From the NCBI GenBank assembly GCA_027596075.1, contig JADGJC010000125.1:45931-109930 (forward strand): a stretch of DNA of 64,000 bases. Direction: 5' to 3'. Position 1 is the first letter of the stretch; each line of letters begins with the position of its first letter. Both the position numbers and the translations under genes were made by a program. A model generated the notes under the pieces. The model ran no database searches. It was not told the DNA's origin and worked only from the letters and a program-made list of their open reading frames with translations. Positions 12,552-63,210 of the stretch are shown one piece after another. The stretch comes from Rhizophlyctis rosea (lineage: Eukaryota > Chytridiomycota > Chytridiomycetes > Rhizophlyctidales > Rhizophlyctidaceae).

Positions 12552-12577
12552 TTCGAGCCTCTTCAAAGGGAACAAAC

Positions 12578-33411: not shown

Positions 33412-33530
33412 ATCTACGGCCATACACACCAGAAAGCACCGGATCCCGTCTGATCTCCGAAGTTAAGCTGGTGATGGCGCAGTCTGTACTGTGGTGGGGG
33501 ACCACACGGGAATACTGCGTGCTGTAGTTT
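33412..33530 (+). rRNA. 5S ribosomal RNA
   Basis: About 119 nt starting ATCTACGGCCATACACACC, with the eukaryotic core ATCCCGTCTGATCTCCGAAG, TTAAGCTGG, GGGGGACCACACGGGAATAC and the 3' stem GTGCTGTAG. The terminal stem CTACGGC pairs with GCTGTAG. The internal promoter (box A region GAAGTTAAGC) is intact. An eight-T terminator runs 33528-33535. It is a single dispersed copy, not linked to the large rDNA unit in this window. Confidence 0.96.
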
Positions 33531-34293
33531 TTTTTCCCCTGTGCTAGTTTTCATTCAGCTCAGCAAAGTGTATCGGTGTCTTTCGAGGAGGCAATGTATA
33601 TTTTGCCACTGACTGATTTTCCCTGCTTTTTCAAGATGTGGTCCGTGCAGATTCGTGCAGTTTCTAAGCCTTGCAATTACGGCGACTGTTGGAGTTCTGC
33701 GACTCTGCCTGATCGACATGGTCATGATCGGACGGCTCCGAAATGGTGGCTCCGGGTTTGAATGCTATTCAGCCAAATTTAAGGGAAGGACACCCTCAAA
33801 TGCTAAGACACTGTTTACCTTGCCTGATGTCACCCAACCATGCCCAGAAAGGGGACTGATTGTTTTTGAAAACAATAGAAAGCAACCAACTCCTTCCCTA
33901 CTTATTTGAGCGATGTCTTTCCTTCGCAGGAGAGCCAACAGCAATGTCCACTCCCTGAGCTTGCGCACGAGAGAGTCTCTTCACTGTCCGCCCGCACCAT
34001 CACAGTAATTATCCCGGAAAAACATGAAACCAGAGCAACCCCTGAAACAGTTCCGGCGCGGGTCCGTTACTGCATGGTGTAAGTCGATGCAAAATGCCCC
34101 AGTGATGTCAACTTTGGCTTACGAAACGTTGTTCTGCTAGCCGTGCATGTCCTAATACCCAAATCTGAGCAAGCAGCCAGTTGGACTGTTAGTGAAGACG
34201 AGGTAATGCAATGCCCGCGCAGGAACTTTGGAAAACAGACGGGTACTAAACACATTCACCATTCAATTGAATAAAAAGTATGCGGAGAGTGCT
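33531..34293. other. Intergenic between 5S rRNA and the ATP-grasp gene
   Basis: No gene recognised. The reading frame of the next gene is open upstream to 34228 (TTG) but has no ATG before 34294, so an upstream coding exon is possible but not supported. Confidence 0.5.
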
Positions 34294-37147: not shown

Positions 37148-39480
37148 ATGGCGACTTTGCCGCAAAGTCAATTGGAGTTGCGCATCAGTGCTCGGTGAGT
37201 TTACAATGACTTTACTGGACAGTGGACCGAGGCGTTTCCATTGTGTGCGTGTGTGTGCATGCATGGGGGAATGTGTTAAGAAGTGAGCGCTACTAGCAGT
37301 GGGGAAGAGTTCGAATGTTTCCATTGCATTGACAGGTGGCGCATGTTTGTTTACATTCTTAGGCTGGGGAGTAGTAGACTTTTAGTTGCATCCATTATTG
37401 GATTCCCTAGCATACATATGCTGACTTTTGCTTCATGACCTAATAGCAATCTCCGCAAACTGCACCGCCTTAATACTCCGTTCGTCCAAGCGGTCACTTT
37501 CATCTTCGACCTTGCGCGCAAGGAGTGGGTTCAAATCGGTCGCAGCGAGGTTGTCGAATTGACAACTAGTGGCCGCGATGTCGAATTCAAGTCGGGTGTT
37601 CTCGTTGACTACATTTTTGGGATTGGGCAGAAGCTCAAGTGGGTGCCGCAAATAATCTTATCCAGGTGGCCGCATTGCCTAACTTCAATCAATCAGATTC
37701 ACCCTCATCGCGTCTTCCGACGCCGCGCAATCCCAAGGTCGATACTTGTTCGGGACCCTGGAAACAAGCTTGGGTGCCATCGGTAAGTCATAAGGTTCCC
37801 AACGATTCCATTGATAGTGATGCTAATCCCTTCTCCCCTGTAGTTGGTTCCCACGCGCACACATTATACACGTCCATTGTAAACCCACGCACCCAGAAAC
37901 CACGCACCACGTCCCACATCAAAATCACTGCTATCGAAGTGAAGGGTTTCCGCCACTCTGTACATTTCAAATTCGGCGCTACCGGCTTGGATAAGAAGGA
38001 CTTGTTCGGAAAGAGTGATCCTTATTATATCATCTTCAGAGGCGAAAGTGGTGAGTGCTGACGAACCTGGTGATGTCATTTCTGCACTTTGACGTCTAAT
38101 GCGGCCTTGATTAGATGGTTCTTTCTCGCCTATCTACACGTCTCCACATCTCCGCAAAACGTTGGACCCTTCCTGGGTGGACACGACCCTTCGACTTGTG
38201 CACCTATGCGGCCCACAAAGCGACTTGAATACTCCGCTCAGGATCGAAGTTCATGACTGGGATCGCGTCAAGGATCATGATTTGATCGGGCAGGTCTTGG
38301 TATGTACCGTCCACTATAAACAGCGATTCTCATTTACCTTTTGGTTACTCATTCAGATTTGATTCCCATCCAGACCACCCCGGCTCAACTACTCAGCTCT
38401 GTTGGACAAGAATTGGATTTGATCAACCCCACAAAACAAGCCAAGAAGTCGGGCTACAAAAACTCTGGAAAGTTCAAAGTTGAGCTATTTGAGCTCGTCG
38501 AATATGCTACGTGAGTAGTCAAACCAGTTAACAGTCACTTTGTATTGCTCATCGGCTGATGATCTTGTTGAACAGGTTCTTTGAGTACATCGCTGGCGGT
38601 GTCGATTTCAACCTTACCATCGCCATTGATTTTACCGCTTCCAACGGTGACCCGGTTAACATCAACTCCTTGCATCACCGTTCACAAAATGGCAGCTTGA
38701 ACCAATATCAGGATGCCATCCAATCCATTGGTAATGTCTGAGTCATTGGCGATTCGAAGTGGGATCTAAATCATCACTCACTGACATCATGTCCACAATA
38801 GTTTCCCTTCTTGAGCCGTATGACTCTGACAACCGTTACCCCGTTTATGGTTTCGGTGCCCACCCCGTTCGTGGTAAAGCGGTCTCTCATGACTTCCCGC
38901 TGACATACGATGCCGCGCACCCAGAAGTATCCGGCATTCAAGGCGTGCTCAGTGCCTACTCGAACGCACTTTCCAAAGTCGTTCTCAACGGTCCCACCAA
39001 CTTCGCTCCTATCATTGAATCGTTCACCACCCGGGTGCGCCAGATGACCGCAGATCGCCCTCAAGGCAGCCACTATTCAATTTTGCTCATTTTGACGGAT
39101 GGCGAAGTCAGCGATTTGCAAGCTACTCTCGCTGCCATTGTGAAGGGATCCGGCTTGCCATTGAGTATCTTGATCGTTGGTGTTGGGAATGCTGATTTTG
39201 GGAAGATGGAGATTCTGGATCCCGAGGAGGATGTTGCCGTGGAACATGGTGGAAAGAAGGCTGAAAGGGACAATGTTTCGTTTGTTAAGCTGAGGGATGT
39301 TAAGGGCCGTGGTGGTGGAGGTGTTGCAACTGCGGTAAGTTCATCATCAGGCTATCCAATAGTGTTTTTGATCAAGAGACTAAAGTCTTACCCTTTCTCA
39401 CATTCTGAATAATCAAGCTCCTGACCCGCCTGCCGCAACACATTCTCCAATACATGACAATTCACAAGATCCAACCTGCA
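37148..39480 (+). other. Copine module (C2A-C2B-vWA) of the giant gene
   Basis: Exons 1-8 and the start of exon 9. The C2A part (LELRISARNLRKLHRLNTPF, VQIGRSEVVEL) lacks the usual calcium-binding Asp in its first loop. The C2B part has them: GLDKKDLFGKSDPYYIIF, TLDPSWVDTTLRL, EVHDWDRVKDHDLIGQVL. The copine vWA domain follows with NLTIAIDFTASNGDPVNINS (MIDAS), the YDSDNRYPVYGFGA and PTNFAPIIESF motifs, and SILLILTDGEVSD. It ends LLTRLPQHILQYM, the normal end of copines. Family role: calcium-dependent phospholipid binding with an A domain that recruits partners. A degenerate C2A with an intact C2B predicts that calcium sensing depends on C2B. Confidence 0.92.
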
Positions 39481-42400
39481 CCACCAGTGCAGTTCACCGA
39501 GCCTCCCACCGAAGCTGATGTGGACTCTGACGAGGAACCCACTAAAACGCCGGTCACCCCTGCTCCTGCCCGCATCCCTGCTCCTGTTGTAGCAGAACCA
39601 GAACGTGCCATCACACCCGAACCAACGCCAGCTCCCGCACCGGTACCAGCTCATCCTCACACTGCTGCTGTCTCCAATGCGCTCGCTCGCCTCATTGCTT
39701 TGAACAATGAAGCAAGTGCAAGCAATTACATATCCAGTGGATGGACTCTTCGGCCCACGGAGAAGGGTGTTATCATCCAAACGAAGGACAGTGCCAGTGG
39801 TGGAGTTCCGATTATCCGCGCGGAGGGTCTACTCAAAGGTGAATGGACCGTCGAGGAGGTGGCCAGCGTTATTTTCAGCGAGAATGGAAGGAGTGGATGT
39901 AAGTGATTCTATATGACGTTTTTGCGTTTGCTTTTGTGAACATCTATGCTTACTTGTCATTCTTTCCGTTTGGCAGGGGATACCCGTATCGACTCGACTT
40001 CTGCTCTTACATACTACACCTCAAACACATCTCTGGTGTACACAACCCACAAGGGATCCCTCATCCTTTCGTCCCGGGACTACATTACCGTCAATACTAT
40101 CGTGTACGATGCCGACGTCACCTATGTGATTCAGACTTCTGTTGAAGATTCCTACCATGGCGCGCAGAAGGGCAAGGTCCGCGGGTGGATTACCGTCAGT
40201 GGATGGATTTTGCAGCGAGTAGCGGGTGGTGTGAGGATCGTTTATGTTGAAGAGATCGATGTCAAGGGCCGGGTCCCTGGTGGTAAGTTTGCCGTCAATT
40301 TCACCATAAAAGAGTGGAAATATCTCACATGTTGACTTCAACAGCAATCATCAAGCTCTTCACCACTCAAAATCCTCTCTTCGTCGCGTACATTATTGAA
40401 TACATCAACTCCCGAGGATTTATCCCGTACATCATCTCCAACTCTCAGTACACCTCTTTCGAGCAGCTTTCTGTTGTCAGCCAATTGTGGGAGATCAAAA
40501 CGTACACCTACAAGCTTAATCTCATCATAAAGAAGACGGCTACGGCTAGTGCTGATGAGTTCAGTATTGCGCTACCGCATACTGCTTTCCCTGCCGGTGC
40601 AGTGATCACCTACCCGGAAGGTTTGACTATTGCCCGCATCCGTGGTTCCACCGTGGTCAGCACGTCAACCATCCTGATCAAGTTTACGGTTCCCATTGAA
40701 TTTGTGCGGAATTTCGCGAAGATCGACATTTCTATTGTGCCCGGAAAGAGCGGAATCATTGCCAACGGCGCCAAAGTACGAACCAGCCTGTATGACAGCT
40801 GGGCGAATGGTTACCGCCACGCGTGGAGTCTTTGGGGCCGCAAGGGTTGGGAAATCATCAGGACTTGTGAGGAGATTGAAGGTGGGAAATGGGAGATTTC
40901 CGGCGGGGACGATGAGAACAAATGCTGGAGCACTGAAGTCGAGGATCGCGTGGTCATCAAGACCAAGTACGACTTGGAAGCGGACGTAGATGATGTGGTT
41001 ACACTCTTTACCCCCGAAGCTTTCAAGAGCTGGGACGAGTCCATTGAAAGTGTCGAGATTTTGGAGCGGGTGGGAAGGGGTGAATGGGTGGTTAGGATTC
41101 TGCGCAAGGGCGGAGAAGAAGTGAGCGGCGGATGCGAGATCTTAGCTTTGGTATCCATCATCGTCGATTCTGAGAAGCAGATTACGTGGGTGCTTGTCAG
41201 TTCCATCGAAACCGACAAATACACCATCACCACCGGACGGCAAAGGATCGACGTCGTCGCCGCATTTGGGATCCGGCAGGCAGGCAGTTGGGTTGGGTCG
41301 ACAATTACTTCGTACTACGCGGTCAAGCAGACTCAAACTTTGACCAAAACCATCATCACTCGCATCATCACCTATTACATCCGTACTATCGTCATCATCC
41401 GCACGCGTTATATCATCATTACCTACGGCGGAGTTGCCCGATGGACCCTTATTGATAACCGTTTGCGTGTTCGTAAAGAAGCGGTCTCCGTTGAAAGCGG
41501 CGAGACAGAAGTCGAATTTGTTGTCGATGTTGATCAGTGTAAAATTGGTCATGCCCAATCTTCTGACCAAACGGTTTCCACCACTACATCATCTTCTGTG
41601 ACCACTCTGCGGAACCCGGTTCTAGAGGTTACTCTCTCGGAAAAGCTCTTTGCATCCGGATTCGACATTTTGCTGTCGTCTGAATCCATCTCATACTTCA
41701 ACTTCGTCCTCGTGACGGTGAGGAGCACGACCACCGTCCGATACATCCTCCGGATCTATTTGAAGGAGGAAGTTATTAGGACTTTGACAGTTTCCATTCT
41801 GGTTGTGCTGATTAGGATTGTTCGAAGGGTGGGAGCAGGGCGCGTGATCACACTCAACGGCGAGCAAGGTCATGTTAGCGAGAGTGGTTCAGGTTCAACT
41901 GTTGTCCAGACCACCACGACAACAAATTACACCGATACCTCTGCTGCTGCGCCCACCATCCATGAAGAGAAGGATATCAAAGAAGGGCAGGCCAGCGATA
42001 TGGATTACGAACATGTTTCTGCCGCTGATGGTGTCCGTGAAGACATTGAATCCCACCGGTATGACGCGGAGGTGAAGCAAAGTGGGGAGATTGTGAACAA
42101 GTTTGAGACGGAGACTTGTGGTGAAGAAGAGAATATTGAGATTGCGAAGACCTGGAAGGTGGAGAATGGCGTTAAGATTGAAGCAGTCGTTGATGCCAAG
42201 TGGAGCTTGCAAGAGGCTGCTTGTTTGATTTGGGGCGAGAGGCGATCCGAATGTGGGTGCTGTTTTGTGTGAGAGTGCAAGGATCTTCACAATTTGCTAA
42301 TTGAGAACATGTCAACATAATAGGGGATCAAACTGTGCAATCCATCCGGGTAATCGAGCGACTAAATTCTGACACCACTCTCATCCTCGTCCGCTACGTC

Positions 42401-45400
42401 AACCAAATCGAAGTCCTCCTGCTGACTTGGACGTACTTCGATGCCAGCACTGGATCTTTGTACATCATCAGCAAGTCTGTCGATGATACTTCCGTCTCTG
42501 TCGAAGAGGGTTGGAAGCGTGTGCATGTGCTGATCAGCGTCTGGAAGTTAGTGAAGGTGGATGGACGTCTGAGATTGGTCATCATCGAGAAGGGTGATGG
42601 TAAGTTGTGACTGCTTAGCAATTGACGGTTTTTCGTAGTTAACCAAATGTCATCATGCTTTCTCCAGCATCATATTTGGAAATCCAAACGATCGTTCAAA
42701 CAGTGACCACATTTACCAAAACCATTACCACCAACATCATCACATCTCAACCCTTCCTCATCCGCTACTTGCCCGGTTTTGAAACCACTTCGAAGTTGCG
42801 AGTTACAAACACCAGATATGAGTCGACAACGAAAACATACTTCCTAGCCTTCAACCTATATTCTGAGACTGGCGCGATACTTGCAGTCGCTTTACCTCGC
42901 TCCATTTACGGACATGGCGCGACAATTACATATCCTAGCGGCATCGTCAGAGTCGAACGCATCGCCGACGAGGCGCTTTCAGGGTTGGCGGGTGCTGTGG
43001 ACACTGGGAACTCTTTGGTAGTCAAGATCTCGGTGGATGGCCGATCAGTTGCCTACGGTCAAGGCGGGTATCTGGCGGTTGAGGTACAATTTGTTGCTAG
43101 GGAGGGGGGTTTTGCCTCGGCGGACGGTCAAACCATTGAAGAAGTCAAAGAGGAGGAAGTATTTGTCGACCAGTGGAGGGAAACTAGTGCAAGCGTGATC
43201 AGCATGCCAACCAGTACAGTCGAGGGGGCGGTGGAGACTGCTACGTCGTCAGGTGTCACTTCCACAATTGCTACCGCCACCACCACCACCACCACGACCT
43301 ACACAACTGAAGGCAGTGAGACTATTCAAACATCTGAATCCAGCGACAAAATCGTACTTGGGAAGGAGGTGCCGATTGTGGAGACCACGATTACCCCTGG
43401 TGTTCCATCGCACCAAGTCCAGGTTTCGGAGGTTGTGGACACTTCTATCTCCACTGTTGAAACGACAAATGAATCTGCAAAGGAGACCGCAATTGTCTCG
43501 CAAGAAGTGCAATTTGCCTCGGCGTCCAAACAGGCATTTGAGGCCGTTTTGTCCGCCGCTAGCGAGAGGTGGGAGGCCAAACATGAAGAGGACGGTGTGA
43601 AAGTCTTTACCATTGAAAGTCCCGACGACGGCGAAGTGTGGGTGAAGACGGAGACGGTTTATGAGCAGGAGTGGAAGGTGGAGGATGTGCTCGCCATGAT
43701 TTCTAGTGACGCTTCTCGAAGAACATGTGAGAACACTTGAGCGCCGCTTGACATCTGTGAATGTTCATAACAGTTGACAATATCTTGCCATAGGGGATCT
43801 TTCGTTCGAGGGGTCGCAAGTCATCCGGCGCTTCGGTCAGTATCAAGTCATCTTCCGGTGGCTGTACAACTACGCATTCGCCTCCACAAAATACGAAGCG
43901 GTCGGTGTGCAGGACCAGATCTTTGATGGACAGACCAACACCACGTACCTCGTTGCGACGTCAATCGACAACAGCAGCATCTCTGCAACAGCAGATCATC
44001 TCCGCATCGTCCTGCTTGTTTGGGGATGGATCATCAGACCTCTCCCTGAAGGTGGCATCCATGTCACCCACATTGTTCGTCAAAAGGTCCCGGGTCTGAC
44101 TCAAGAGTACCTTGTGAAGTACTTCACCACCCTGATCACTACCATCGTAACCATCCGCCGATACCTTATCACACATGGTGTGCCAACAACGTGTGTTGTG
44201 CCCAAGCACCAGGAAGGGGTTGAGGTAAAGGTTGATCAGGAGACTTTTGATACCGAAACTGGCGCATATCAAGTCGCATATGATTTGCACTTCGATGAGA
44301 AATGGGAAGAGGCGAGGACTAACTCAGCCGGTTGGTTGGAATTGAACGTGGATCAACGGACATACCCGGAAGGATACGAAGTCGTCATTGCTGAAGGCGC
44401 GGACTACGTTGAGTTGATTACCGGCGAAGATGGGAGGATTAAGCTTTGCCCGCGGTATGACTTGGTCACAAGTATCAGCGTGGTCAGGATCGTGGTACGG
44501 ATAGTTAGGAAGGTAGTGAGGGAGCATGAAGTCGGTCACGTGGGCGCAACAATTGTGAGGGTTCAACAGGACGTGTACCGGCCCCTGGAGGGTTCGTTGA
44601 AAACAGTCGAGACTGTTGATGAGACGGAGGAAGTGGAGGAGGTTACTGAAATTGAGCCGGCTGCTCCCAAAACGGAAGATGTGATCCAAACCACGCACGT
44701 TGAAGCGAATCATCCTCCTACCATGGCGCTACCTGCGGAACACGTGCGGGAAGAGATTTCGGCCCAGGAAACAGTACCAGGTGGTTCGGCCCCCACGCAA
44801 CCGTACACGGACACTGCACCTGGCGATGCCGTACATGCATCATATGCCTCACTTTCCACAACTGAAACGGTGGAGGAGAGTGAGGTTACAGAAGAGATCA
44901 CTGAGCCCATTGCAAGCGAACCTGCTCCACTCTCAGGTAAAGGGGACGAAACGACTATCGTGACACAGCCCGGCAGGGTCACTGAAAACACAGACGAGGA
45001 ACATAATGCGGATGCGGAAGGTCAGTCCTCTCCGTTAGGGACTGCATCCAGCCAAACAAGGGAACCATCCTATCAAGGCCATGTTGAGTCTCAGTCTGCA
45101 TCGCCTTCGGCAAGTGCTGATACGTACGAAACAGTGCAAACATCCGAAGAGACTGTAGAAATACCCGTCAAGCCCTCTCAGCAACCGTCGACTACCGGCA
45201 ACAGTGAGAAGACCGTGGAAGAGGCATCAGCTTCGGCTCCACCTGTGGTGGAAACGGAAGCGAAGTATCAGGAAGACGGGGTGCCAAATAGTGAAATGGC
45301 TGCAGCCGAAACAACCGAAGTGGCGACAGGGCAGCCAAAAGTTATTACACAGGCTCAGCCAGAAACCTCACTTAACACGGCCGAGGAGCACATCGACGTC

Positions 45401-48400
45401 GGCTCTGCGCACCCGCAGGATTCATCGGTTACAGTGGAAACTGTGAAGGTTGCGGAAGGAGCGTATGACTCACTGGCGGGTGGTGATGAAGTGGAGATAT
45501 CGAAGGGAACCGTTGACACGGAGGATATTGCAGTACATCCGGCGGATTCCACCACAACCACAACTCAGGAGGGTACTGAAGGTGAAGACTTTACCAGCCA
45601 CGTTACGAACGTTGAGTTGGCTGGGGTGACGGCGGTTGCTGCTGCGGCGGCTACAGTGGGTGCCGCAATTCTTACTGAAAAAGAGAATATTTCGACGACT
45701 ACAACGGAAACCATTACAGATACCCAACAAGTGTCCCAGGAACACATCGCGGTGGGTCTTGCCGGCAAAACTGCGGAGGGTGTTGAAGTCGCTTTCACGG
45801 AGTCTGAGCCTGGAACAGATGGGTACATGCGAGTGCAGTATGCGCTCTCTTTTGCATCTGATTGTAACAAGGAGAGCGCGGCGGGAGTTGATGCGGGTCA
45901 GGTGGAGATCAGTCTGGGATCCATTGCTGAAGGTGCCGACGATATAGAGGTAGTTTTGGAGGAAGGAAGCGAGTACGTTGATGTCGTTCAATGTCAAAAT
46001 GGGAAGGTGGTGTTACGTCCCCGATACGAATCTATTGTCAGTGTCAGTGTCGTTACCGTAATCGTGCGCATTATCGTTAGAAAGATTCACCATGAATTCG
46101 CTTATGTGGAAGGTACCAAAGTAGAAGTTCGAGAAGGGCATGGAGGGCACAGGGAGACTACCGTTATGGAGACGGTCGCTACCCCTGTAACGGAAGAAAT
46201 GATAGAAAGCATCACAACCAAAACTCATACCTCTGACTACAATCTCAGTGCAGTGGGGGAGGGCGAGACTTCATCAGAGCACCAGCTTGCGGAGGAAGTG
46301 ACGGCACCTGCTCAGGAAACGATCGTAGTGGCAGATGCGGAACGTGCACAACCATCGCCTGTGCAACAAACTGGGGTCAACGATTATGCGTCCGCGTCAG
46401 TCCCGCCCGTCGTGGCGGGACAAGAGAGTGAAACTGGAGCGCACTATAGTGCACCCGAAGCCATTAGCACCTCGGCAACCGCAGAAGTTCCAGCTGCCTC
46501 CGACGCCCGGGGGGAAGAAACCACTGAAGAACACGTCGTCGTTGAAAGCCATGAAATTCACACTCCAGTGGAAACAGTTGTTCACCAGACAGAGGTATCT
46601 GAGGAAGTCGGCACACCGATTGAAACTGTTGTTGTTGTTGATGCCCGAGATCATGCTGCCACTGGGACGCTTCAGTCAGAAAACACCATTAGCACGGAAA
46701 TTCCAGAAAGCACTAGCGTCACTTCGATTTCGGAAACATGTGAAGGCGGTGCTCCGCTTACGGCCATCGACTTCAATACACCTACAACCACTGACGGTAA
46801 GAAAATCATTATCTCACTTGATCGTTCGCGTATTAATGTCATCATTCTAGACGTGTCGGTGTCTACGGATGAGACACCCGGTCTTCCAACTCGCGGAGAG
46901 CTCGAACATTCAGCGCCCGTCATTGAAATCGTGCCAGTTCCAGTTGCCGCCGATTTTCCTGAGACCCCTGCCATTGAGCAAGTTGATGAGTCAACAGCTC
47001 AGCCCTACCCTTTCACGGTTGAAGAACAGAAGGAGGTTGAGGAAGTGCTTGCACGAACACCAGACGTCGACGGGAATGCGCCGGCTGGGACAGCCCCGGT
47101 TGAATACAAAGAGGCAGGCGGGGAGGAGATCCCTAAGTTGAGTTCCGAGCAAAACCTCGTTGAAGAAGCCCCAGCTGTCACCATGGCGGTCGAGGAGCAG
47201 GAGGAGGGCGAGAAAGTGCCTGCAACAAAACCAGATGTCAGTGAGAATGCACCGGTTGCCATCACCACGGTTGAAGAAAAGGAGGCACGCGAGAAAGTCC
47301 CCACGCCAATTTGGGAGCCAAACCTCGTTCCCGTAATCCCCGCAGTAACCACAATTGTTGAAGAAGAGGACAAGGTTCAGGAAGTGCGGGCACCAAAATC
47401 AGACGTTGATGCGAATGCACCGACTGCCACCACAACGGTTGAAGAAGAGGAGGCACCAAGTTGCGAGTCAAACCCCGTAGCCGAAATCCCGGCTGTTACC
47501 ACCACAGTTGAAGAGGAGGAAAAGGTCGAGGAAGTTCCTGCACCACTTTCTGAATCAGACGTTGCCGCAAAAGCCCGGTATGATACCACCACGGTTGAGG
47601 AAAAGGAGGCAGGAAAGGAAATCCCTACACCAAGTCCCGACCAAAACCTTCTTGCGGAAAACCCGACTGTGCCCACCATTGTTGAAGAGGAAAAGAGGGT
47701 TGAGGAAGTGCCTGCACCAACATCTGAACCAGACATTGCTGTGAAAGCCCCGGATGCCACCACCACAATTGAGCAACACGAAGAAGTTGGAGAACTGCCT
47801 TCACCTACTTCTCATTATGGGATTGATGAGTCTGCACCAACTACCAAGACCGCGGTTGAGGAACAAGAATGTGTTGAACAGGTGCCCATACCGGATTCGA
47901 AGCATGAGGTCAATGAAGCCGCTCCAGCTTCCGCCGCCGTGATACAAGAATATGTGCCAAGTGAAGGCCTGCCGGCAGCAAGTTGTGAATCAGAGCGTGT
48001 AGACCAGACCACTGAGGGTGTCAACATTCAACCACAGGAATTGCCCATCATCTCGACAACCGAAACTGCTCTACCCACGGCGTCAGGATACACGGTTCAA
48101 GAGACGACTGACCTTTCTGCGACAGAAGCTCCCTCACCTCAGATTGAAGTACGTGAGGAGCCCACATATGTGGTCACCCAGGTATGTTCCACTGAATACA
48201 ACACCAACACTCGACTGATCTGAGATTCAGCACCTAAACTAACTTCAATTTTACCAGGACCAATCTCCAACACCAGAGCACGCGGTCGCAACTGCCCCTA
48301 TCTCCTACTCCTCAGCAGATACTTTGACACAAACCGACGAACCGCACGTGCAATCTGTACAGCCAGAAGTCGATGCGGCGATTCCAACCCCTCATCCGAA

Positions 48401-51400: not shown

Positions 51401-54400
51401 GAGATGCGCACAAACTCAGTGAACCTACACCAATCGTTGGGGATGTCAAAACATATACAACTAAGGAAAATGGAGCACCTGCGCTAGTTGAGACCCAGGC
51501 GACGGAAGCAATGGTAGAAGGAACTCATGGAGGAGACGTGATGCACAGAAGAGACTCTGTCACAGTCGAACATGTTGGAGAAGCAGAGCCCATGGTAAGC
51601 ACGGATGTATGTAGGAGTGAAGGCGTTGGTTGGGCTCGCCATGAATGAAAGCTGACATGGAATATTCCCACCTTTTAGGACGGTGTCCAGATTGCAATGC
51701 AACAACAGGCGCCCTCGACAAGTGGTGGGCATTACGAACAATCATCAGAAGGAACGGTCGACCTTCCCAAGGCAGACACAGATGGGGAAGGTACATCCAA
51801 TATTTCCACTACGACCGGCAACGAAATTGAAAATCATCTGGTTACCGCGGTCGAGGACGTGAAGTCTACACAGTCAGTGATCATTACAGAAGAAACAGTT
51901 GCATACGTCCAACCCCAAGAACAGGAAAGTCTGGCTGCCGGGGACGGTGTACAAGCGGAAATCGAATATTCCAATACCGAGGAGTTTGACGGTCAGTTTT
52001 ATTTGCACGTGTGATATGGTGATGTTTGATTCTCACACTTCAAGTCAGGTTTGGAGGTCCCTACCGACGGATATGGTGCGGTGATCCTTCCCGACGTTGG
52101 CTGCCTCACCTACGTCGATTGGTGCGCTCACGAAGGCAAGCTCCAGACTGAGGAGACAAAACAAGAGTTCTGTTCCCTCGTCCGACCTGGCTATCAAGAG
52201 CATCCGGAGTATGTAGCCAAATACGGCTTCCGCACCTGGCGGTTCTTCAGCATTGGAGGCGCGGTCTATGTTGCAGGTGTTGGGTATCTGACATTTGTGG
52301 ATTGGCTCCGGCACTTCAATAAGGTCGCAACGGTGGACACCCGACAGGAGTTCATATCACAAGTCCAACCCAATTACGGGACGGAAACGGAGTATGTCAC
52401 CAAGTACGGCAACACGCAAACCAACCTTCCGAAATTGCTGGGAGCGGTGCGCTTGCCTGGAATTGGCCTCGCAAACTATAAAGAATGGCTCACGTTCCAC
52501 GGCAAATCAGCAGATGAACAATCGAAAGCTGAATTCGAAGCTCTTGTGGAAGAAGACTTCCAGACCAATGAAGAGTTTGTTGCAAAGTATGGTTCGGGCA
52601 TGCAGTGGACCACGTGGAAAGTTGTGAAGGCGGTCCTTGTTAAGGGGCTTGGATTCCTCACCTACAAGGAATGGTGTCAGCACTACCACAAAGAAGAATC
52701 GGCGGCGACGCAGAAGGAGTTTGACTCGCTTGTTGAACCTGGGTTTGAGAAGCGCCCCGAGTACATTGCGAAATTCATCAACATCGTTCCACAACAAACT
52801 TCTACCAGTTCCACCGCCTCTCAGGAAGCCGTGTTTGTGGCCGGGATTGGATTCCTGACGTATGAAGAGTGGTGCAGTCACTTTGCAAAGGAAGTCGCCT
52901 CAGTAGAAAGTGAATTGGAGTTTAAGTCGCAGGCGCAAACCATTTCCGTCGAGAGGACCGAATACATCACTACTCATGTCATCGAACAAGTGTCGGAAGA
53001 GCCTGTTCTTGAAGACAGCCATGGTTGGACTTACGAGGGGTGGTTGCAACACGAAGGCAAGGCCCCATCGACCGCGGCGGAGGCGGAATATAGAGCAGCT
53101 TTGAATGACGGGAACAGGAAGGAAGGGTGGTTTTCGAAAGTCGGGCGGTACTTCCGGGAAACTGTGGGTGGGGTACAGGTGCCCAGCGTGGGATCTCTTA
53201 GCTATGAAGCCTGGTTGAAGCAAGAAAACAAGGTAGCAAGCGCGGCTACCTTGGAAGAATTCCAGACGTATACCCACAATTACCAAGCGGGACCGGTCAA
53301 TCAATCGGAGCATTCTCAATCGTCGCCGCCTGAAATAGTCACAGTCACCGAAGTCATCGAAGCGCCTGCGGAAATCTCTACAGTGACGGCTTCAACAGCC
53401 TATTCGAGCTCGACTCCTGAACTCATTGCTGAGACAATTGAACACCCCACTGAAGGAGAACTTATCGAGGCAAAGGTAATCACTGCGGCGACAAACATGT
53501 CAAGCATTCTTTTTTTTGCTTTCAAGCTCAACGACCATTGTTCCATGCTAGGATGTTGAACCATCAGAAACACCTGAGGACCTGCGTCCCAGCGAACATC
53601 TTCATGAGCAACCTATTCCTACATCTGTCACTTCCGACCAGACGACACCTGACAGTGGTAAGTTACAATTGCCAAACTTCCCTCATCCACGTTGGCCTTA
53701 AAATGTCGTCTTCGGCAGCAGCAGGAAACCCCGCCATTCAAATCGAGTCATCGATCATTGAGCAAAATCAAGACCTGGGAGCCGCGGATGGCATCACGAC
53801 AACTAAGGAAATTCCCGTGATTGCTACTTCCGAGATCTCCAGTAGTGGGAGCTGCCCGTCATTTCCAGAAAGTTCTGCTGTTTTCAAGTCCGCGGATATT
53901 CACGTGGCCCCCGAGGAAGCCGTCACGGAGGAGGGTGCAGCACCCGTTGCTGTCGAGGAAATCGCTGCTCCTGGGCAGGAGGGTGTAGTTGCTGAGGATG
54001 AAGTGAAGGTTGTGAAGTCAACTGAAATCTCTCAGGATGTTGGTATCGAGAAAACTCCGGCTCCGGTTGTTGAGGAGGGCATTATTGCTGGGGATGAAGT
54101 CAAGGCTGAGGAGCCAGTCAAAGCTGGTGAACCTACTCAGGATCATGTTGAGGAGACCGCTACTCCGACTGCTGCTGCTGGGAATAACGTCGAGGTCGGC
54201 GGGGAAGGTGTGGTTGAGACCGTCTCGGCTGTTACAGCTCCTGCGGAAGACTATGCTCCCGCACCAGTTTCTGACGGTGAGCCAGCAGTCGAGGACGTGA
54301 AGGCTGAGGAGGCTGTTTCTAAAGCTCCTGTTGCTGAAGCTTCAGCTGTAGTCGAGGAAGCTGTTTCTGAAGGGCCCCATGAACTTCCTTTTAAGTACGC

Positions 54401-57400
54401 CCCTGCACCCGTTGATGAAGATGTTGCTCCCGTCGAGGAAGTTACGGCCGCGGAACCTGTTGTGGAGCAAGTGAAGGTCGAAGAATCCGTTCCTGCTGGC
54501 GTTGATGTCGTTCCCGCCTCGGCTGTGCAGGAATCAGCTCCTGTTGATGAATGCCTTCACGTTCCAGCCCCTGTTGACGAACCCACTGCCGATAATGCCT
54601 ACACAACAAAACCTGATGTACCCCTTGTCGCAGATGCTCCAATCGTCATTTCGTCAGAGGCAGCAACTCATGACGTCGCGCCGAGCACCAGCCAAACATC
54701 TTCCGGGTTGTCGGAAGAGGAACGGGGTTTACCATCATCATTCACCCATGTGCCTTCCACCCCCACGACGGAAGAAACGCCCAACATGCCATCCATTAGG
54801 GAATATGCCCAAGGTCCGGCAACTTCTTCTGACAGGTCGACATACGAAGCAACATACGAAGCAACCAAACCGACATCTCACCAAGACTTTGAAGCAAATC
54901 CATCGGCAGCACAAATTGGGTCTGTTGTCGTCTCTCACCAGCCGGTTGCGGAATCGGCCGAGACCACCGTCGAAAATGTCGCTACCCCATCCATTGCGCC
55001 GACGTCGACACCCAGCGCTGCTCCCGTGATTGAAGAAGGTCTCAATCAAAGTCAAACAGACGACTCTACCATCTCTGCCTCAGTACCCACAACCTACCAA
55101 CCGGCCGGTGAAGTCGAGTCTTCTACCACTTCTTCAACCGCAATTCCCCAGGATGATGCCCCATCCGTAGCTCCAGCCCCTGCTTCCAGTCCGAATGTCA
55201 CCACACACATTTCTGTGACATCTCCTTCCGAACCAGTTGCGATAAGCGACAATCTCACACCAGCAAAGTTATCCACAGCGCATGCAGCACCCTCCATTGC
55301 AAATGACGCCACCGAGATCTCTCCTCCTACCTATTCGGTCGACCAAACTTCGGAGATGTGTAGTGGGGAAGACTTGCCTTCTGTGCCACGATTGGACGCG
55401 GAAGCCATCCTGATTGAGGGAAATACTTCTGATCTGATACAACCAACAGTGGATCAGCGGGAAACTGAAGAAATATCAGCTGCTCCATCAATTGCTACTG
55501 CTGAAGTCGGAATCAGTGAACCAACCTCACCAACCGCTCCCTCGACATCCACGCAAAATGAAGTCGTCAGCGACATGCAGGTCGTCCCCCCTCCACCGTC
55601 GGAAGGCTGCAGAGAACCTCCAATCGGTCGGGAAGAAGTCAATCAAGAAAAAACACAGGACGTACCATTTGCGGAGCCCGAAGCTCCAACAAGCTATGTC
55701 AGACCTGAAGTCGCCAATGCACCAGTCACAGGCCCGTCACCGATTGAAACCGCCTCAACCCTCATTGTCCCTGAGGTATCGGACGCAGCTTCAGGTGCTG
55801 TCTTGCCACAGAAGGTAGGTAATGCAGAATCATGTGTTGCTTTGAACTCTACTAAAGGTCAGATTTTTTTCAAGACGCCTTCCCCCGCTGAGATCTTCCT
55901 TGCTGCCGCTACACATGGCGCAGAACCCATGCAACAGTCCCAACCTGCCTACGGCGGGCAATACTTGAGTGTGGATGCTGCGAAAACTCAATATGTTGAC
56001 GTGATCCCATCTTCAGAGAAAGCCGAGAACGCTCTTCAATATGTTGAAGTACCAGCGGAAATCACATCAAAGTCGGACGTCGCGGATGTAGAGACGGACA
56101 ATGTTCAGGAGCACACTGTCATCGTGCAAGCAGTTCAGCATGTCACCGATGACCAACCACAGCATGAGGTGGAGGAGGTTACGATTGTCGCGGTCAATGC
56201 TCAGGTGGCGGACACCCACCATTCGGAGGTGTCGGAAGTCGAATCTGGGCCGGCACATGTTGAACAGACTGTGTCAACGACAACAGACTTGTCCGGTGTT
56301 GAAACGATTACGTACGTGGTGACGGGAACGGGACAGCAGGTGACGGATAGCGTCGCGGAATTGGTTTCTCAAGTGATGAGTACGGAAGGGGAGGTGAAGG
56401 TCGAAACATCTGTTCTGGAAGATACGTCGACAGTCAATGCAGTGGTGTTAGGCGCCGGCGACGAATCGTTGACTGCCATTGTCGAAAACCGGGAGTTTGT
56501 CACGACGGACGTCATCCATTCCGAGGTCAAATCCCACACCATTGAGCATGTTGTGGAAGAAATCCAAAATGCGACCACATCCTCTGAAAGTACTGTGACC
56601 AAAATCGTATTGACTACCAGCGAAACCGCACTTATTGACGGAACTCAAGCAGAGGTGAGTTCTGGAATCCAATCACAGTCAGGGATTTGCGGGTTTTGAT
56701 AATGTCTTCATGTGCATCAGGGTTCGACAAGTGAGAGTGCAATCCCTCCTCCACACCTTGATCACGCGCCTGATACCCTTCCGGTCATAAACGCCATCCC
56801 CGGCTCTGTTACCACCCCGACCTCTTACCCGCCAGACATCGTACAAGGCGTGAGCTCATCAGAAAGCGTTCGAAATATTCCATCCGAAGAGGGGCTGGCT
56901 GCGGGAGAGGGATTATACTCCAGCAGGGTTCGTGATGGGATGGAGACCTTTGCAGGGTCGAGCACTCCTGCTGATGTTGGAAAGGAAACAGTGTCTGACA
57001 AGTTGACTGATGTCGGTGAAGACATTGTTACCGGCGGGAAAACATACTCTGAGGGCGACAAGGAACATACCTTCGCCGCTCATGAAGAGGGCAAAAGCGC
57101 CACAAGCGCCGACAAGTCCACGTTGATTGAGACCGCCCATATCCCTGAAACCCCCACACCTCACGTTGGCGACTCTTCCGTGGTTTCCGTCACGCAGATC
57201 ACGAACACTGTCGCGGAGCAAGTCTCCTCTGTCAGTGGAGCGACCACCTCCGACAGTGCATTCTATCTCTCGGAAACTAGCGAAGTGGATGGACGCCAAG
57301 TTCGTGAATCATCACCACTTCAAGACAGCCTTCTGGTCGCCGCGGCCTGGCCGTCATCGCACAAGTACGTGAAGACTGGTGCGGCCGCCCTCCAGATTGC

Positions 57401-60400
57401 ACAGGCGGTTGAAGGGGCAAAGATCAAAACCACCGAAAGTCTTGAACAAGTTGAATGCGGGTCTGGAGAAGTGACCACGGAAGGAGGGGAAACTGTTTCG
57501 GTAGTGCAAGCGAAGACTATCCTTGAGGGAACTGATGTTGAGGATGTAGCAGACACATTATTCTCTCCTGCGGGTCGTGGAACTTGTGAGTTTTTATGTA
57601 CATGACAGGTTGCAAGGTGTCAGGTGTATTGACCCTTCAATTTTAGGGGACTCGAACCTCCTCTCCGTTGAAGTTCAAGAATGGTATAGCTCTGAGGACT
57701 ATCTGCTTCGCCTCAAGTACCGTGATGAGATGTCAGAGTAAGTAAGGTTATTCAACCACTCCAATTTGTCACTCTAACGCTGAAAGTATTATTAGGGAAT
57801 CCGAAACTAGCGCTCTTGTCGGTCGTGTCTACAACAGCGTGACTCGAACTTGGTACATCATCATTACCAGCGTGTACGACGAAGCAGCTACTGTTTCCCG
57901 CAAGTCTTTCATTCAAATCTGGATCTTGCGTCAAATCACGGAAGGTGTTTCTCTCACCCTCGTTACATACAATAAGACCGAAAACATCAATGCCAGCATT
58001 ATCACCCGTTATATCCTGACGATCGTGACCACGCTTCGAACATATATTATTACGCATGGCACAATTTTGGCAGCACGTGTGCAAGGCAATACGAGCGAGG
58101 GCCTGACGGTGAATGTCCAGAAGGAAGTTCATGAAGCAGATTCCTACGTTGTGGAGTACGGCTTGGCTGTTGGTGAAACGTCGCTTGATTCAAACAAGTC
58201 TGGTGTCGCCGGATTAGTCGAATTTAAATTCGATCAAAAACAGTACACTGGGGGCGCAGAGATCAAGGTGGAACCAGCCGACAAGGTCGAATGTCGGTTG
58301 AGTCCGGATGGTCAGTTCTTGAGAGTATACCCACGATATGACGCTATCTACCGTGTCGGGGCAGGTGTCACCATCATCATCACGGTCACTATCATCAGAA
58401 GGGTCGGGGAAACACGTACCTTCATTGTGAACGGTTCCGAAAGAGTCCAACGTGATTCGATTGGGGTTATTTACGCGGATGGACAAATCGAATACCTTGA
58501 TGAAGACGTAAGGCGTCGTCCCCACCGCTACACCCGAAAGGTTCAGCAGGCGTTCCAGTTACTGCGGCGTCTCGAGCCACTGGCCGCGGGTTGGAAGTAC
58601 TCTTCTGGATCGGCATCACTAAGAATCTCGACACGTGCGGTGGCAGGTGCGAGCATGCCCATGATCAGAGGAGATGGGCTAATCAAGCGATCGTGGACCG
58701 TCGAAGAGGTGGTCAGTGTAATCAAGAGCACAGAAGCCCGTAAAATCTGTAAGTCAATTGTCCCCCCACTTCTCACCTACAGAAAACGAGAAATTTGACT
58801 TTGTACTTGGGTGTCAGGGGATTCCCGATTCCAAGATGGGAAAGTGCTGGAGGCCTTCAGTTCCGGTGACGCGGTAACCTACACGCAACGTAAAGGAGGC
58901 TTGTTGCTGTCCGCAAGGGACTTTGTGACTGTCACCCACACTGAGATATCTCCCGACTTCAACACCACTTACATCGTTTCCACCTCTGTTGTTGACCCCA
59001 TTGGACCCGAAGTCAAAGGCTGTGTGCGAGGACACATCACCATCAGCGGGTGGATCGTTCAGCCCACAGAAGGAGGGATCGCGGTGACATACATTGAACA
59101 CCTGGACATCCGTTCGGGTGTTCTCGGATGTGAGTATTGGGACTTTTCTACCATACCTAATGCCTTTGACTCACGGACAATGTCATTCCTTCAATAGCAT
59201 TTGTGGAATCTTACAGCACTCAGACCCCTCAGTGCATTGCAGAGGTAGACAAATACCTGCAAAAGTATGGCCAAGAACCTTTCGTCATCGAATCCAGCTA
59301 TGATATCGGGTTGCCAGAAAATGTTGCGGTTGCCGGGTCTTTCGATAGAAAGAAGAAGGAATACGTGGTTGATTTGTCTGTTCACAAGCCGGTAGAAACT
59401 GAGGATCATGATGGATGGTCTATTGTTGCTCTTGCCCTTCCGAAAACGGCGTTCCACGGCCTCAATGTCACCGTGGATTCCAACGAGCACTTCAAGGCAG
59501 ATATTATCGCCTCTGAGGCTGTCAGCGACGCGTGGGTCCTTCGGATATTGATCAATGTATCATTGTTCACCATTGCGACCTACAACTACCACATCGTCAT
59601 TCGTGATGCCTCCGACGGAAGCTTCTTGCTGAACCAGGAAACACTGGCCCAGATCCCCGCGGTCGAATTCTCCGACATCACCCTCCCGGAGGAAAACTGG
59701 CCTCACATCTGGTCACCAAACCGCCATACCAAATCCGTTGAAAGCGCGTATGATCGGATCTCCGGGTTGATCTCCAAGACTACTCAATGGAGAAGCAGGG
59801 ACATCGACGGTGTAAAATTTGCAACCGTTGGTGTGAAAGGCGAGCGGCTTCCGTTGGTGAAGGCGGAAATGGAGATTGAGGGTTGCTCGGTGGAGGATGT
59901 CTCTGGTCTCATTTCCAGTTTCGGAGCGAGGAAGAAATGTAAGTAATTCATTCTTTCGCATTTGTTGAAGCGTTCACTCAAATATCTAACCTCCCGCTCA
60001 ATCAGGGGACGACCGAGTTGAAGATATTGTTGCCTTGGACTATCTAGACAAAGATGAAGCGTTGGTTCATATTCGCCGCCGTGATGCTGGCGGTGATGGG
60101 TAAGTGGGCACATCACATCCCCACACTCAATGCCATAATATTCACATGATTGACAGGCTCGACGAGGTACTTGCTGTCCAGCACAAAATGGTCGAAAGTG
60201 GGAGTGGAACCGTTTACATCGTTGCAACATCGGTCAAAGATGGAGCTCTTCCAAATAGCGACGTTTTCCGGGCCGACGTGAATCTCTGGGCTTGGATCAT
60301 TTCCAAGTCTGCCAAGGGGGTTATCCTCACATTCTTCTATCATGAGGATGCAAGACACGTGCCAAGCACTCGGTGGAGTTTCGTGTCGTACAGGAGTTGG

Positions 60401-63210
60401 ATCGTACGGACTCTTCATGGAATCACAACGTATTTGAAGCACAACGGCGTTCCTATGCATTACGCCGCGGCACAATCCGAAGAAGGACTAGACGTCGCGG
60501 TGAAGAAGGAGACCTTTGATCACTCCACCGGACTGTACGAACTCGAATATGACATTTCATTTGCTGAGGACCAATGGACGAATAACTCCGGACGGGCGGG
60601 CCTTGTGACTTTGAACGTAGATCACCGCATGTAAGCATCTATCAGGGGCGCGGTAACATCATAAGGTCTTTCCTCTAACTTTTGTGTAGGTACCCCGGTG
60701 GGGTGGAGGTCCAGATCCTAGAAGGCGCAGAACAAGTGGATGCCAACGCTTCTGCCGACGGAAAATGTGTCCGCTTATATCCGCGTTACTCTTCCATCCG
60801 CACCAGTGGGCTTTTGCTCGTCAAGATCATCGTGCGCGTGACTTCTCGTGCCATTTCGGACGAAACAAGTGACATTGTCGTCAACGGTCAATCTTGCACA
60901 AGAAGCATTGCTTCTGGTGTTGTTGATGACCACTCCCATGGTCCCGCTCTCCCCTGGCCTTCTATCGGACGCAGTCATCAGTACACCGACGTCGGCACCA
61001 AGTCCTTCCAGTATATGAAGTGGCTTCTTTTCAGTGGAGTTCGCTGGAAGAGGCAAAGTCAGCAGGACAACATCAACATTGAGATTGTTGATGTTGAGGG
61101 CGAGCTCCTCCCAGTTGTAAAGGCCACCACGGTATTCCCGGGGGACTTTTCAGTTGAGGATGTGAAGGCTTTAGTAACCAGCGTTTCCGCCCGATCGGAA
61201 TGTAAGGATGTCTTCGAATTGATGAGATGGAAAGATTGTTACTCACAAGTTCGTTCCAGGGGATGAGCGATTCAAAAATGCTCAGATCTTGCACCATTAT
61301 AGTGATAATGAATTGGTCATTCAGGAAGATGGGGAAATCCCGTCCACCGGCGAAAGGTGAGCACGCCAGTGAAAGCCCAGTAAGATGCTGTATCACATAA
61401 TGACCCGTTGTATTCCAAAAGCTATCAACGAACAACACTGCAGGGTGCAGTTGATGACACGGAATCACAAACTAGCTACGTTCTGGCGACCGCCGTGGGT
61501 GAACCGACGGATGAGAGCAATTGGGTAGTGCTCTGGGCTTGGATCATTCGCCGCGTCGAAGAAGGCGTCTCCGTCACTCACCTCGTTCGCACTCATACCG
61601 GAACGAACCATCCCGAGACCTTTGAGTCTTACGTCCAATATATTGTGCGCTACATCCTTGGTGCCAAAAACTACCTTGCGACCTACGGCATCCCCACCCG
61701 CGCCCTTCTGCTAAGTGCTTCTAACTTTGAAATTCAATTCGTCCGTGAGTTCTTTGACCGACAATCCGGGACCTTCGAACTTGACTACAAGGTTGAGAAG
61801 AGCTTGAATGCGGACCCAATCACAACTGCCGCGACGGATGGTGTGGTGGAGATCCAGCTGGACAGCAAGCACGTTTATCCTCAGGGCGTTAACGTCAGGG
61901 CCACTGGGCCAGTCGCAATTGATCATGACGCCTCAGGCTCTGTCGTCCGCCTCATCCCCAAACCTGATTCGATCGGAGCGGGAGGAGCTCGTATTTCAGT
62001 GACGGTGGTGCGTCGGTCGCGGCAGCGCAGCGTGGTGAACTACAAGCCTCATCGCCATACTCCCGCCGCCGTCCATGCATTGGATTACTTGCAAACACTT
62101 CACCATGAACAGGATGGTTGGAAGTTCCAAGCTGAGCAACAAGGTGTGAAGATTTACACCCAGAGCGTGGAGGGACACTTGCTGCCTATCGTGCGGGGCA
62201 GTGGCCATATCAAGGGTGGATGGACTGTACAGGAAATTTTGAGTGTGATCAAAAATTTCGGAGCCCGAAAATCATGGGACCCCCGATTCGATGATGGTCG
62301 GGTAGTTGAATTCATCTCCCTCGATGAGAGCTTGGCTTTGACTCAGGTAAGGCGGATCATGCACCATTCTCATTGCATGTATGGGATGTCTAATTACGGC
62401 GTATCCACTCCATTAGCGCAAGTCCGTCTTGTTTACTTGGAGCCGTGATATCTCTGCCGTGAGTCTGATATACCGAGACGGTGACACCAACACCACCTAC
62501 CGAGCCTCCACCTCTGTCGTCGACTCCCTATGCCCCGAAGACTCGAAACGCGTTCGTGCTCATATCGAGATATTGGGTTGGTGTCTGACACCGGTGGAAG
62601 GGGGTGTTGATGTGACATATGTGGAACAAATCGACATCAAAGGAAGCATTCTTTCATGTGAGTATCTTTAACAAAAAAGGTCTCTCCACAATCGAAAACT
62701 CATCCCGGTCCAATCTTTATAGCGTTTGTGGAAAGTTTCCTCAAAACCACTCCCCTCTGCATCGCCGGCGTCAACAAATACCTTGAGAAGCACAGCTTCA
62801 TTCCTTTCATCGTCCGTCACGTTCCGGCCCTAGCGGCGCATCCCGACGTCCTCTGCATAACCAGCGAGAAGTTCAATACCGGCACCAACGAATATGACCT
62901 CAGCTTCCGCGCCACCGACAATGCTCACTTTGCAGTGGCCCTACCGAGGAGGGTATTTGGGCAAGGCGCGGACATCAAGATCGCTGCGCCGGGAAGGTTG
63001 ACTGTTGGATCCGGCATCGTTTCGTCGACCGTGGTTCCGGATCTTGCCATCGCTGCTGGGGATGATGAAGCTGTCGTGGTGAAGTTCGATGCCCAATTGG
63101 AAGCTCCTGCTGAGGCAGATGGGGAAGTGCATATTAGTATCAAGCCGGGCAAGGAAGGGATTTTGGTCAATGGTGCGTATGTGGCAGTCTTAACCGCCAA
63201 AGAAGAATAG
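37148..63210 (+). CDS. Giant copine-START fusion protein, about 7,893 aa in 34 exons
   Basis: Not a described protein as far as I know. Exons: 37148-37194, 37447-37638, 37697-37782, 37844-38050, 38115-38299, 38374-38510, 38576-38730, 38802-39334, 39418-39898, 39977-40282, 40345-42252, 42324-42599, 42668-43726, 43794-48181, 48258-49152, 49209-49873, 49936-51594, 51679-51991, 52049-53475, 53552-53657, 53725-55814, 55875-56654, 56721-57585, 57647-57737, 57796-58748, 58818-59129, 59198-59938, 60006-60099, 60157-60630, 60690-61201, 61260-61356, 61422-62346, 62423-62657, 62723-63210. They total 23,682 nt; every junction keeps phase and there is no internal stop. Order: copine; START units 1-4 each with a beta-rich module; orphan beta module; acidic repeats; a seven-fold LTY.EW repeat; Ser/Thr/Pro/Glu linkers; START units 5-9. 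The copine and START parts share exon 39418-39898, so the fusion does not rest on a guessed splice. Likely cytosolic, calcium-responsive and membrane-associated, with many lipid pockets; this function is inferred. Splitting into several transcripts in vivo is possible. Confidence 0.82.
39672..44575 (+). repeat. START-like units S1-S4, each followed by a beta-rich accessory module
   Basis: START signature in S1: GVIIQTKDSASGGVPIIRAE, WTVEEVASVIF, then WDTRIDS, LSSRDYITVNT, TYVIQTSV, KVRGWITVSGWILQ and YVEEIDVKGRVPG, then a final helix. S2 lies inside exon 40345-42252 (FKSWDESIESVEILERV, WVLVSSIETD). S3 is 42030-43150 (WSLQEAACLIWGER, WDQTVQSIRVIERL, LYIISKSVDD). S4 is 43525-44575 (DGVKVFTIES, WKVEDVLAMI, WDLSFEGSQV, TYLVATSIDN, WGWIIRPLPEGGIHVTHIV). 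After each START comes a module of about 110-160 residues with the pattern YDL.F...W..NSA.WLELNVDQR.YP.G.EV..EG..YV, ending PRYD.. and an Ile/Val-rich strand. S2 and S3 are the most divergent and rich in Ile/Val/Thr. Confidence 0.8.
47018..48020 (+). repeat. Acidic tandem repeat VEEEEKVEEVPAP type, about 12 units of 23-30 aa
   Basis: Units start with VEEQ/VEEE/VEEK and end AP.ATTT or PAVTT. Neighbouring units alternate between two forms, VEE..KVEEVPAP.SE.DV...AP and VEEKEAG.EIPTPS..QNL....P, so the ancestral unit that was multiplied was probably a dimer of about 57 residues. Coding only; the DNA copies have diverged, so this is not a recent microsatellite. Confidence 0.85.
50810..51320 (+). 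repeat. Tandem repeat IVEHVVEAPI.TPS type, about 6 units
   Basis: Units of roughly 22-28 residues: IVEHVVETPAPAPS, IGDHIVPAPNATPSYD, IEHAIEAPIATPSYD, IVEHVVEAPITTPSNT, IIEEAAEAPITTPSNT, ATVEAPIATPLYE. The two units at about 51060-51190 are nearly identical (EAPITTPSNT..SYDQKE), pointing to recent unit duplication. Confidence 0.85.
52070..53290 (+). repeat. Seven-fold unrecognised repeat domain (LTY.EW...H..K)
   Basis: Seven units of about 50 conserved residues with a spacing of 55-75. Shared pattern: GAV.V.GVG.LTY.EW..H..K.AT..T..EF.SLV.P.Y....EYV.KYG. Unit anchors are GCLTYVDWCAHEGK, GYLTFVDWLRHFNK, GLANYKEWLTFHGK, GFLTYKEWCQHYHK, GFLTYEEWCSHFAK, HGWTYEGWLQHEGK and GSLSYEAWLKQENK. The Trp is invariant and Tyr/Phe three residues before it nearly so. 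The regular aromatic/charged spacing suggests small helical modules strung together. I know no named family with this signature. Lies in one exon (52049-53475) except for the linkers. Confidence 0.85.
53291..57300 (+). other. Second low-complexity linker of the giant gene
   Basis: About 1,270 residues, rich in Val/Glu/Ala/Pro at first (53930-54600: PVVEEG, DEVKAEEPVKAGEP), then Ser/Thr/Pro, then Val/Glu/Thr (56080-56640). The 60-nt segment 55815-55874 is in frame but has a donor (GTAGGT), a TACTAA branch site and a CAAG end, so it is more likely an intron than coding. Confidence 0.7.
57305..63207 (+). repeat. START-like units S5-S9 with accessory modules
   Basis: S5 begins at about 57305 (weak N-half, then WDSNLLSVEV, TWYIIITSVYDE). 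S6, about 58500-59700, is the closest to classical START: MIRGDGLIKRSWTVEEVVSV, WDSRFQDGKVLEAF, LLLSARDFVTVTHTE, TYIVSTSVVD, GHITISGWIVQPTEGGIAVT. S7 is 59700-60930 (WDDRVEDIV, TVYIVATSVKD). S8 is 60960-62050 (WDERFKNAQI, SYVLATAVGE, WAWIIRRVEEGVSVTHLV). S9 is 62050-63207 (GWKFQAEQQGVKIYTQS, IVRGSGHIKGGWTVQEI, WDPRFDDGRVVEFI, YRASTSVVDS, WCLTPVEGGVDVTYVEQIDI). The beta-rich module follows each one and the protein ends with it (EVHISIKPGKEGILVNGAYV). Family role: START domains hold one lipid in a hydrophobic pocket. Confidence 0.87.

Follow-up and report, generated by a model that had tools for sequence, protein, structure and literature searches.

The 64,000-nucleotide stretch analysed here (the window) is the last part of contig JADGJC010000125.1 (109,930 bases) of the soil chytrid Rhizophlyctis rosea (Rhizophlyctidales), whose assembly measures 44.1 Mb in 634 contigs. 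Its main feature is a giant gene, stopping 790 bp before the contig end, that is predicted to encode a copine continuing into nine START-like domains (Table 1). Each START is followed by a GH5_C-like beta-sandwich tail, and the START units, of two types (A and B), are split 4 + 5 around a long middle region containing a short repeat, here called the EW repeat. An initial annotation of the same DNA had proposed the copine with nine STARTs, and this stands; it had missed the tails, the subtypes, the EW repeats and the 4 + 5 split.

The gene is confirmed as a single open spliced frame. Its predicted coding sequence of 23,757 nt specifies 7,919 residues (854 kDa, pI 4.5) without a stop and closes with TAG at 63208–63210. 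All 32 introns are bounded by GT-AG (median 65.5 nt, range 57–252), and each of them either contains an in-frame stop or has a length that is no multiple of three, which makes splicing obligatory throughout. The model was produced by a dynamic-programming gene finder followed by three corrections: a 45-nt in-frame exon (37300–37344), the skipping of which gives normal-looking C2 sequence, was removed; the original acceptor of exon 9 was replaced by one at 39418; and a false 180-nt intron inside START 6 was taken out. NCBI's gene model backs the first two changes. One giant spliced frame had been claimed correctly, with the exon number revised from 34 to 33 and the length from about 7,893 to 7,919 aa.

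On the real strand the gene finder reached +1858, removing 2.5 kb as 34 introns. Every control scored below zero: the reverse complement −189, five Markov resamples −271 to −326, and an upstream stretch (8001–34060) −233 and −68 on its two strands. The finder's codon table had been derived from the giant gene itself and favours the real strand, so the size of this margin is flattering; its sign is not in doubt. Moreover, the ten exons longer than 800 nt contain no stop in the coding frame, versus 2–101 in the two other frames. Residues 1–5010 are identical, except for four residues at one donor site, to an NCBI record of 5,006 residues ('Copine-8, partial [Rhizophlyctis rosea]', P0007), while residues 5011–7919 are based on our gene model and that of the initial annotation.

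Profile checks upheld the copine assignment, with 208 bits for PF07002 (cut-off 27) and 39.1 bits for PF00168 (cut-off 22). Pfam finds one C2 stretch only, C2B; the C2A region is unmatched, yet aligns with the C2A of two Actinomortierella copines, both of which keep an Asp-rich calcium loop that the giant's C2A region lacks. The C2B calcium loops DKKDLFGKSDPY and DWDRVKDHD sit where plant BONZAI 1 (BON1) has such loops, and these two Asp motifs are absent from the Actinomortierella copines and in part present in the C2B of BON1, which is also the best solved relative (3e-82, residues 136–530, covering C2B and vWA). The MIDAS residues of the vWA domain (D, T, S, T and D, as listed in PMC10968396) are all in place, in DFTAS, GPTNFAP and LTDG. 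A review describes copines as C2-C2-vWA proteins, of 59–70 kDa in mammals, and regards C2B as critical for their calcium-dependent binding to membranes and C2A as dispensable (PMC10968396). Because the giant's Asp loops are missing from C2A and present in C2B, its putative calcium recruitment would depend on C2B.

The copine was said to run into the first START within one exon, and it does: exon 9 encodes the last vWA helix and the beginning of START 1 without interruption. The genome's second copine (contig C124) aligns piecewise within residues 1–537 of the giant, and translating the surrounding 20 kb in all six frames revealed no START-tail unit at E ≤ 1.

Pfam START (PF01852) exceeds its cut-off in three of the nine units (1, 6 and 9), stays below it in units 3, 7 and 8, and leaves units 2, 4 and 5 unmatched. 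Leave-one-out unit profiles recover all nine, the worst being unit 2 (6.8e-15 for an assumed database of 100,000); units 2, 3, 4, 5, 7 and 8 are therefore also counted as START domains. A profile of the giant's units and one Mortierella stretch (alignment A1) gave 20 matches at E ≤ 1 among PDB sequences, 19 to START proteins (best CERT, 2.8e-14) and one to an ion channel (0.83). The W-D motif is retained throughout (9/9 units). Structure prediction of a single unit, a check the initial annotation had suggested, returned for unit 1 a complete START with helix-grip fold, whose nearest predicted neighbours are lipid-transfer STARTs, in VIA-align lists (for unit 1 and tail alike) where absence does not exclude a family. 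The START of STARD13/DLC2, a non-transfer protein, also matches both the unit profile and the unit 1 model.

The sandwich tails follow all nine STARTs and recur as a tenth, orphan copy. They resemble the C-terminal domain (PF18564) of the GH5 sterylglucosidase Sgl1 and endoglycoceramidase, at best with 21.3 bits against a curated cut-off of 22 (19.4 in another scan), and the tail of unit 8, modelled alone, is predicted to adopt the PF18564 beta-sandwich fold. Pfam detects no catalytic GH5 barrel in the giant. Genome-wide, five PF18564 matches lie above the cut-off. On contig C113, a START-bearing frame (104358–105197, +) and a GH5 + GH5_C frame (105541–107343, −) are convergent, with 344 bp between them; together they carry the two kinds of domain found side by side nine times in the giant.

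Intron positions and a tree bear on how the array arose. In seven of nine units a phase-1 intron interrupts the tryptophan codon of the W-D motif; random placement of the observed intron numbers (20,000 trials) never had more than three units sharing column and phase. A second position (phase 1) is common to units 1, 6 and 9, with unit 3 ten columns away, and a third (phase 2) to units 5 and 7, with unit 8 one column away; units 7 and 9 have one private intron each. The maximum-likelihood tree separates type A (units 1, 3, 6 and 9) from type B (2, 4, 5, 7 and 8) with support of 99/98, with mostly unsure branching inside the types and long branches for units 2 and 3. Along the protein the types run A B A B, the B-like orphan tail, then B A B B A. 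Judged from these sequence patterns, the array goes back to the duplication of a START + beta-sandwich unit, which the pairwise identity of the units (15–37%) marks as old.

Table 1. Features of the giant gene and neighbouring features of the window (positions are those of the window).
Feature	Position	Strand	Extent or basis
Whole predicted giant gene	37148..63210	+	33 exons, 7,919 aa + TAG
Copine C2A region, approximate end	37148..37938	+	Alignment with two Actinomortierella copines
C2B domain, retains Asp motifs for calcium binding	37975..38388	+	Pfam PF00168 9.4e-10
Copine vWA (A) domain with MIDAS	38667..39477	+	Pfam PF07002 (Copine) 1.6e-61
Exon 9: copine A domain end, linker, START 1 N-terminal part	39418..39898	+	Single open exon
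Unit 1, type A START + GH5_C-like tail	39652..40787	+	Pfam START 1.5e-14; tail from ~40422
Unit 2, type B START + tail, most diverged, intronless	40806..41885	+	Unit profiles, tree
Unit 3, type A START + tail	42042..43161	+	Pfam below cut-off, unit profiles, tree
Unit 4, type B START + tail	43498..44569	+	Unit profiles, tree
Acidic low-complexity spacer 1, includes orphan tail	44570..51990	+	2,383 aa; D+E 18.9%, K+R 3.9%
Orphan type-B-like tail without START	45689..46132	+	Unit profile E 3.4e-9, tail columns only
EW repeats, seven copies, ~55–65 aa	52051..53340	+	Counted by eye
Acidic low-complexity spacer 2	53341..57353	+	1,270 aa
Unit 5, type B START + tail	57354..58468	+	Unit profiles, tree
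Unit 6, type A START + tail	58511..59670	+	Pfam START 1.2e-18, unit profiles, tree
Unit 7, type B START + tail	59707..60921	+	Pfam below cut-off, unit profiles, tree
Unit 8, type B START + tail	60964..62031	+	Tail from ~61690: PF18564 E 0.0016
Unit 9, type A START + tail, C-terminal end of protein	62038..63207	+	Pfam START 9.9e-14
tRNA-Cys gene	12479..12552	+	
5S rRNA gene	33412..33530	+	
Open frame with D-Ala-D-Ala-ligase-like ATP-grasp domain	34207..35391	+	1.3e-14

The middle region between the two arrays (~4,080 residues) consists of two acidic S/T/P-rich spacers (D+E 17–19%, K+R <4% across both), the orphan tail and the EW repeats. Seven frames spanning most of it (excluding the 35 residues of exon 20) gave no Pfam domain at E ≤ 0.01, and a genome search with a 639-residue piece of spacer 2 matched only itself. 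The orphan tail, without a Pfam match when scanned alone, may be what is left of a tenth unit. The EW repeat, with consensus GVGYLTYxEWxxHxxK..EFxxLVxPGYxxxPEYxxKYG and core E/D-W, appears undescribed: its exon has no match in NCBIfam or PDB sequences and only weak, sub-cut-off matches in Pfam. A 1,670-aa frame on contig C256 (L036:3303-8312, −), which by eye opens with a transmembrane-like stretch, holds 13 further copies; weaker matches lie on contigs C235, C223, C482 and C140. The C256 frame scores 27.2 bits for Pfam MitoNEET_N (cut-off 23) with no individual stretch passing, and has a KCU-star match below the NCBIfam cut-off.

We also considered, and rejected, a transmembrane protein: 13 of the 15 hydrophobic stretches (mean >1.3 over 19 residues) fall within the vWA domain, START/tail units, orphan tail or EW repeats. 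The remaining two are in spacer 1, at residues 2466 and 2862. The former (45617–45685) is Ala-rich with a Kyte-Doolittle value of 2.04, lies directly before the orphan tail, and is a possible membrane insertion or remnant. Outside the giant gene, the open frame just upstream carries a D-Ala-D-Ala-ligase-like domain (Table 1), which we find unexpected in a fungus.

All genome matches to the unit queries at E ≤ 1 (type A 12/12, type B 10/10) lie on the giant's own contig. Three protein searches scored the candidates sharing most words with the query (detection needs a shared 5-residue word; candidate lengths are reckoned from 0.55 to 1.75 times the query). The first (query residues 1–1500, scored part 280–1000; 7,991 candidates of 825–2625 aa scored) gave six matches: P0001–P0005 all have Pfam Copine and none has START, the listing for P0006 shows just C2 and Copine, and the unit profile did not fall below E 1.7 in any of them. 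The second (query 1–3838, scored part 300–1100; 1,861 candidates of 2,111–6,716 aa) returned the giant's own locus record and a Mortierella protein, P0008. The third, with the C-terminal array (query 6190–7919, its residues 350–1730 scored; 7,994 candidates of 951–3,027 aa), had no match. The initial annotation's statement that no comparable fusion was known thus agrees with these searches, which found no second copine-START fusion among the scored candidates of 825–6,716 aa, larger relatives lying out of reach. A copine-START protein was likewise absent from the titles and abstract beginnings of the open-licence papers listed.

P0008 (Mortierella sp. AD011, 3,801 aa, annotated 'Suppressor of Sensor Kinase (SLN1)') is, within search reach, the sole START+tail-like protein found outside R. 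rosea. Its three START+tail-like stretches (best 4.2e-26 in a one-protein search; Pfam START 9.5e-14) are joined not to a copine but to an Ssk2/MEKK-type kinase, and the protein has a hydrophobic stretch close to its C-terminal end; the model is automatic, and the joining may be a gene-model fusion.

Known systems share parts of this architecture. Copines (BON1, CPNE1-9, Dictyostelium CpnA) have the C2B and MIDAS motifs in common with the giant, and also the C2-C2-vWA order if its C2A region counts as a C2 domain; the giant differs in its mass of ~854 kDa and in continuing into nine STARTs. CERT/STARD11, STARD4, STARD5 and STARD10 share the fold and sequence profile of the giant's units; each has one START, whereas the giant has nine, each with a GH5_C-like tail, joined to a copine. 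START proteins known to us have one or two START domains, and we know of no copine in yeast Lam2/Lam4 (Ysp2). These membrane-contact proteins resemble the giant in having more than one START-type domain, with two (PMC12705765) rather than nine. A Medicago HD-Zip gene also carries two START domains. Sgl1 and endoglycoceramidase are GH5 enzymes, and no GH5 barrel was detected in the giant. VPS13, ATG2 and kin have a continuous repeating beta-groove, whereas the giant's modelled repeat unit is a START domain.

Copines move to acidic membranes with calcium, chiefly via C2B, and the START fold encloses one lipid. From the frame, the domains, the folds modelled for unit 1 and for the unit 8 tail, and the duplication, we infer a calcium-recruited array of lipid cups, and we tentatively favour a tethered lipid shuttle or buffer of high capacity that would be gated by calcium and have no continuous channel. 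The giant would be a peripheral membrane protein, ordered as copine, four units, spacer 1, seven EW repeats, spacer 2 and five units. A rise in calcium would dock the copine through C2B on an acidic membrane rich in phosphatidylserine; each START would bind a single lipid, most likely a sterol or ceramide-type lipid, a weak guess drawn from the nearest STARTs and from how the sandwich resembles enzymes of sterylglucosides and glycosphingolipids. The sandwich may pack beside the pocket and aid membrane seating or recognition of sterol or sphingolipid headgroups, and the flexible acidic spacers could give the five distal units access to another membrane. Such a protein would act as many separate cups on a leash rather than as a channel. 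The lipid bridge suggested earlier found no support: the modelled unit looks like an ordinary START enclosing one lipid, with no groove joining it to a neighbour.

Almost as good as the shuttle, and in itself somewhat unlikely, is a calcium-dependent, lipid-decorated scaffold that is no transporter and whose STARTs would carry lipids with a structural or regulatory role, or else bind proteins. The long acidic spacers, the divergent units, the sharing of EW repeats with another large frame of the genome and the vWA domain, which is reported to bind proteins (PMC10968396), point this way; the predicted completeness of unit 1, its nearness to lipid-transfer STARTs and the W-D motif kept in all nine units point the other way, with the STARD13/DLC2 match keeping the scaffold in play. 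A calcium-recruited carrier or scaffold is a reasonable candidate role.

Going further than the shuttle, a calcium-gated 'bucket array' would place nine START cups (A/B) with their sandwiches on a copine for calcium-triggered bulk transfer of sterols or sphingolipids, the spacers dividing a near from a far battery, for example in zoospore encystment and wall building. We consider this unlikely; were it so, START + GH5_C-like tail would be an undescribed mobile module of early-diverging fungi, attached to a copine in R. rosea and to a kinase in Mortierella.

The tails raise the prospect of a sterol/glycolipid metabolon, in which the units would serve GH5 enzymes, sterylglucosidase for example, by presenting or sensing steryl glucosides or glycosphingolipids, with no bulk lipid movement between organelles. 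Their likeness to the GH5 domain and the five genomic PF18564 matches, including the one on C113 close to a START-bearing frame, speak for it, but the missing barrel and the sub-cut-off tail scores make it improbable.

A division into two genes, exons 1–20 (copine, units 1–4, EW repeats) and 21–33 (units 5–9), seems no more probable. NCBI's partial model halts at the end of exon 20, and unspliced read-through meets TAA at 53699–53701, then ATG at 53703 in exon 21's frame. However, stop and ATG are 1 nt apart, without space for a 3′ end and a promoter, which makes two ordinary genes implausible; a 61-nt intron with GTAAGT donor and CAG acceptor keeps the frame, the NCBI record, labelled as partial, does not include the stop of the unspliced reading, and types A and B occur in both arrays. 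An assembly or gene-finding artefact, suggested by the single assembly, the nearby contig end and the failure to find a relative with the same order, is very improbable given the copine and START in one open exon, the control scores, the stop-free long exons and the shared intron position.

The component domains are of known kinds, and their architecture is without parallel within the reach of our searches. Single units are small enough for separate expression, so that lipid preference and calcium gating are testable. If the shuttle reading is true, lipid transfer in this fungus would be scaled by many tethered cups, rather than by one long groove, and linked directly to calcium.
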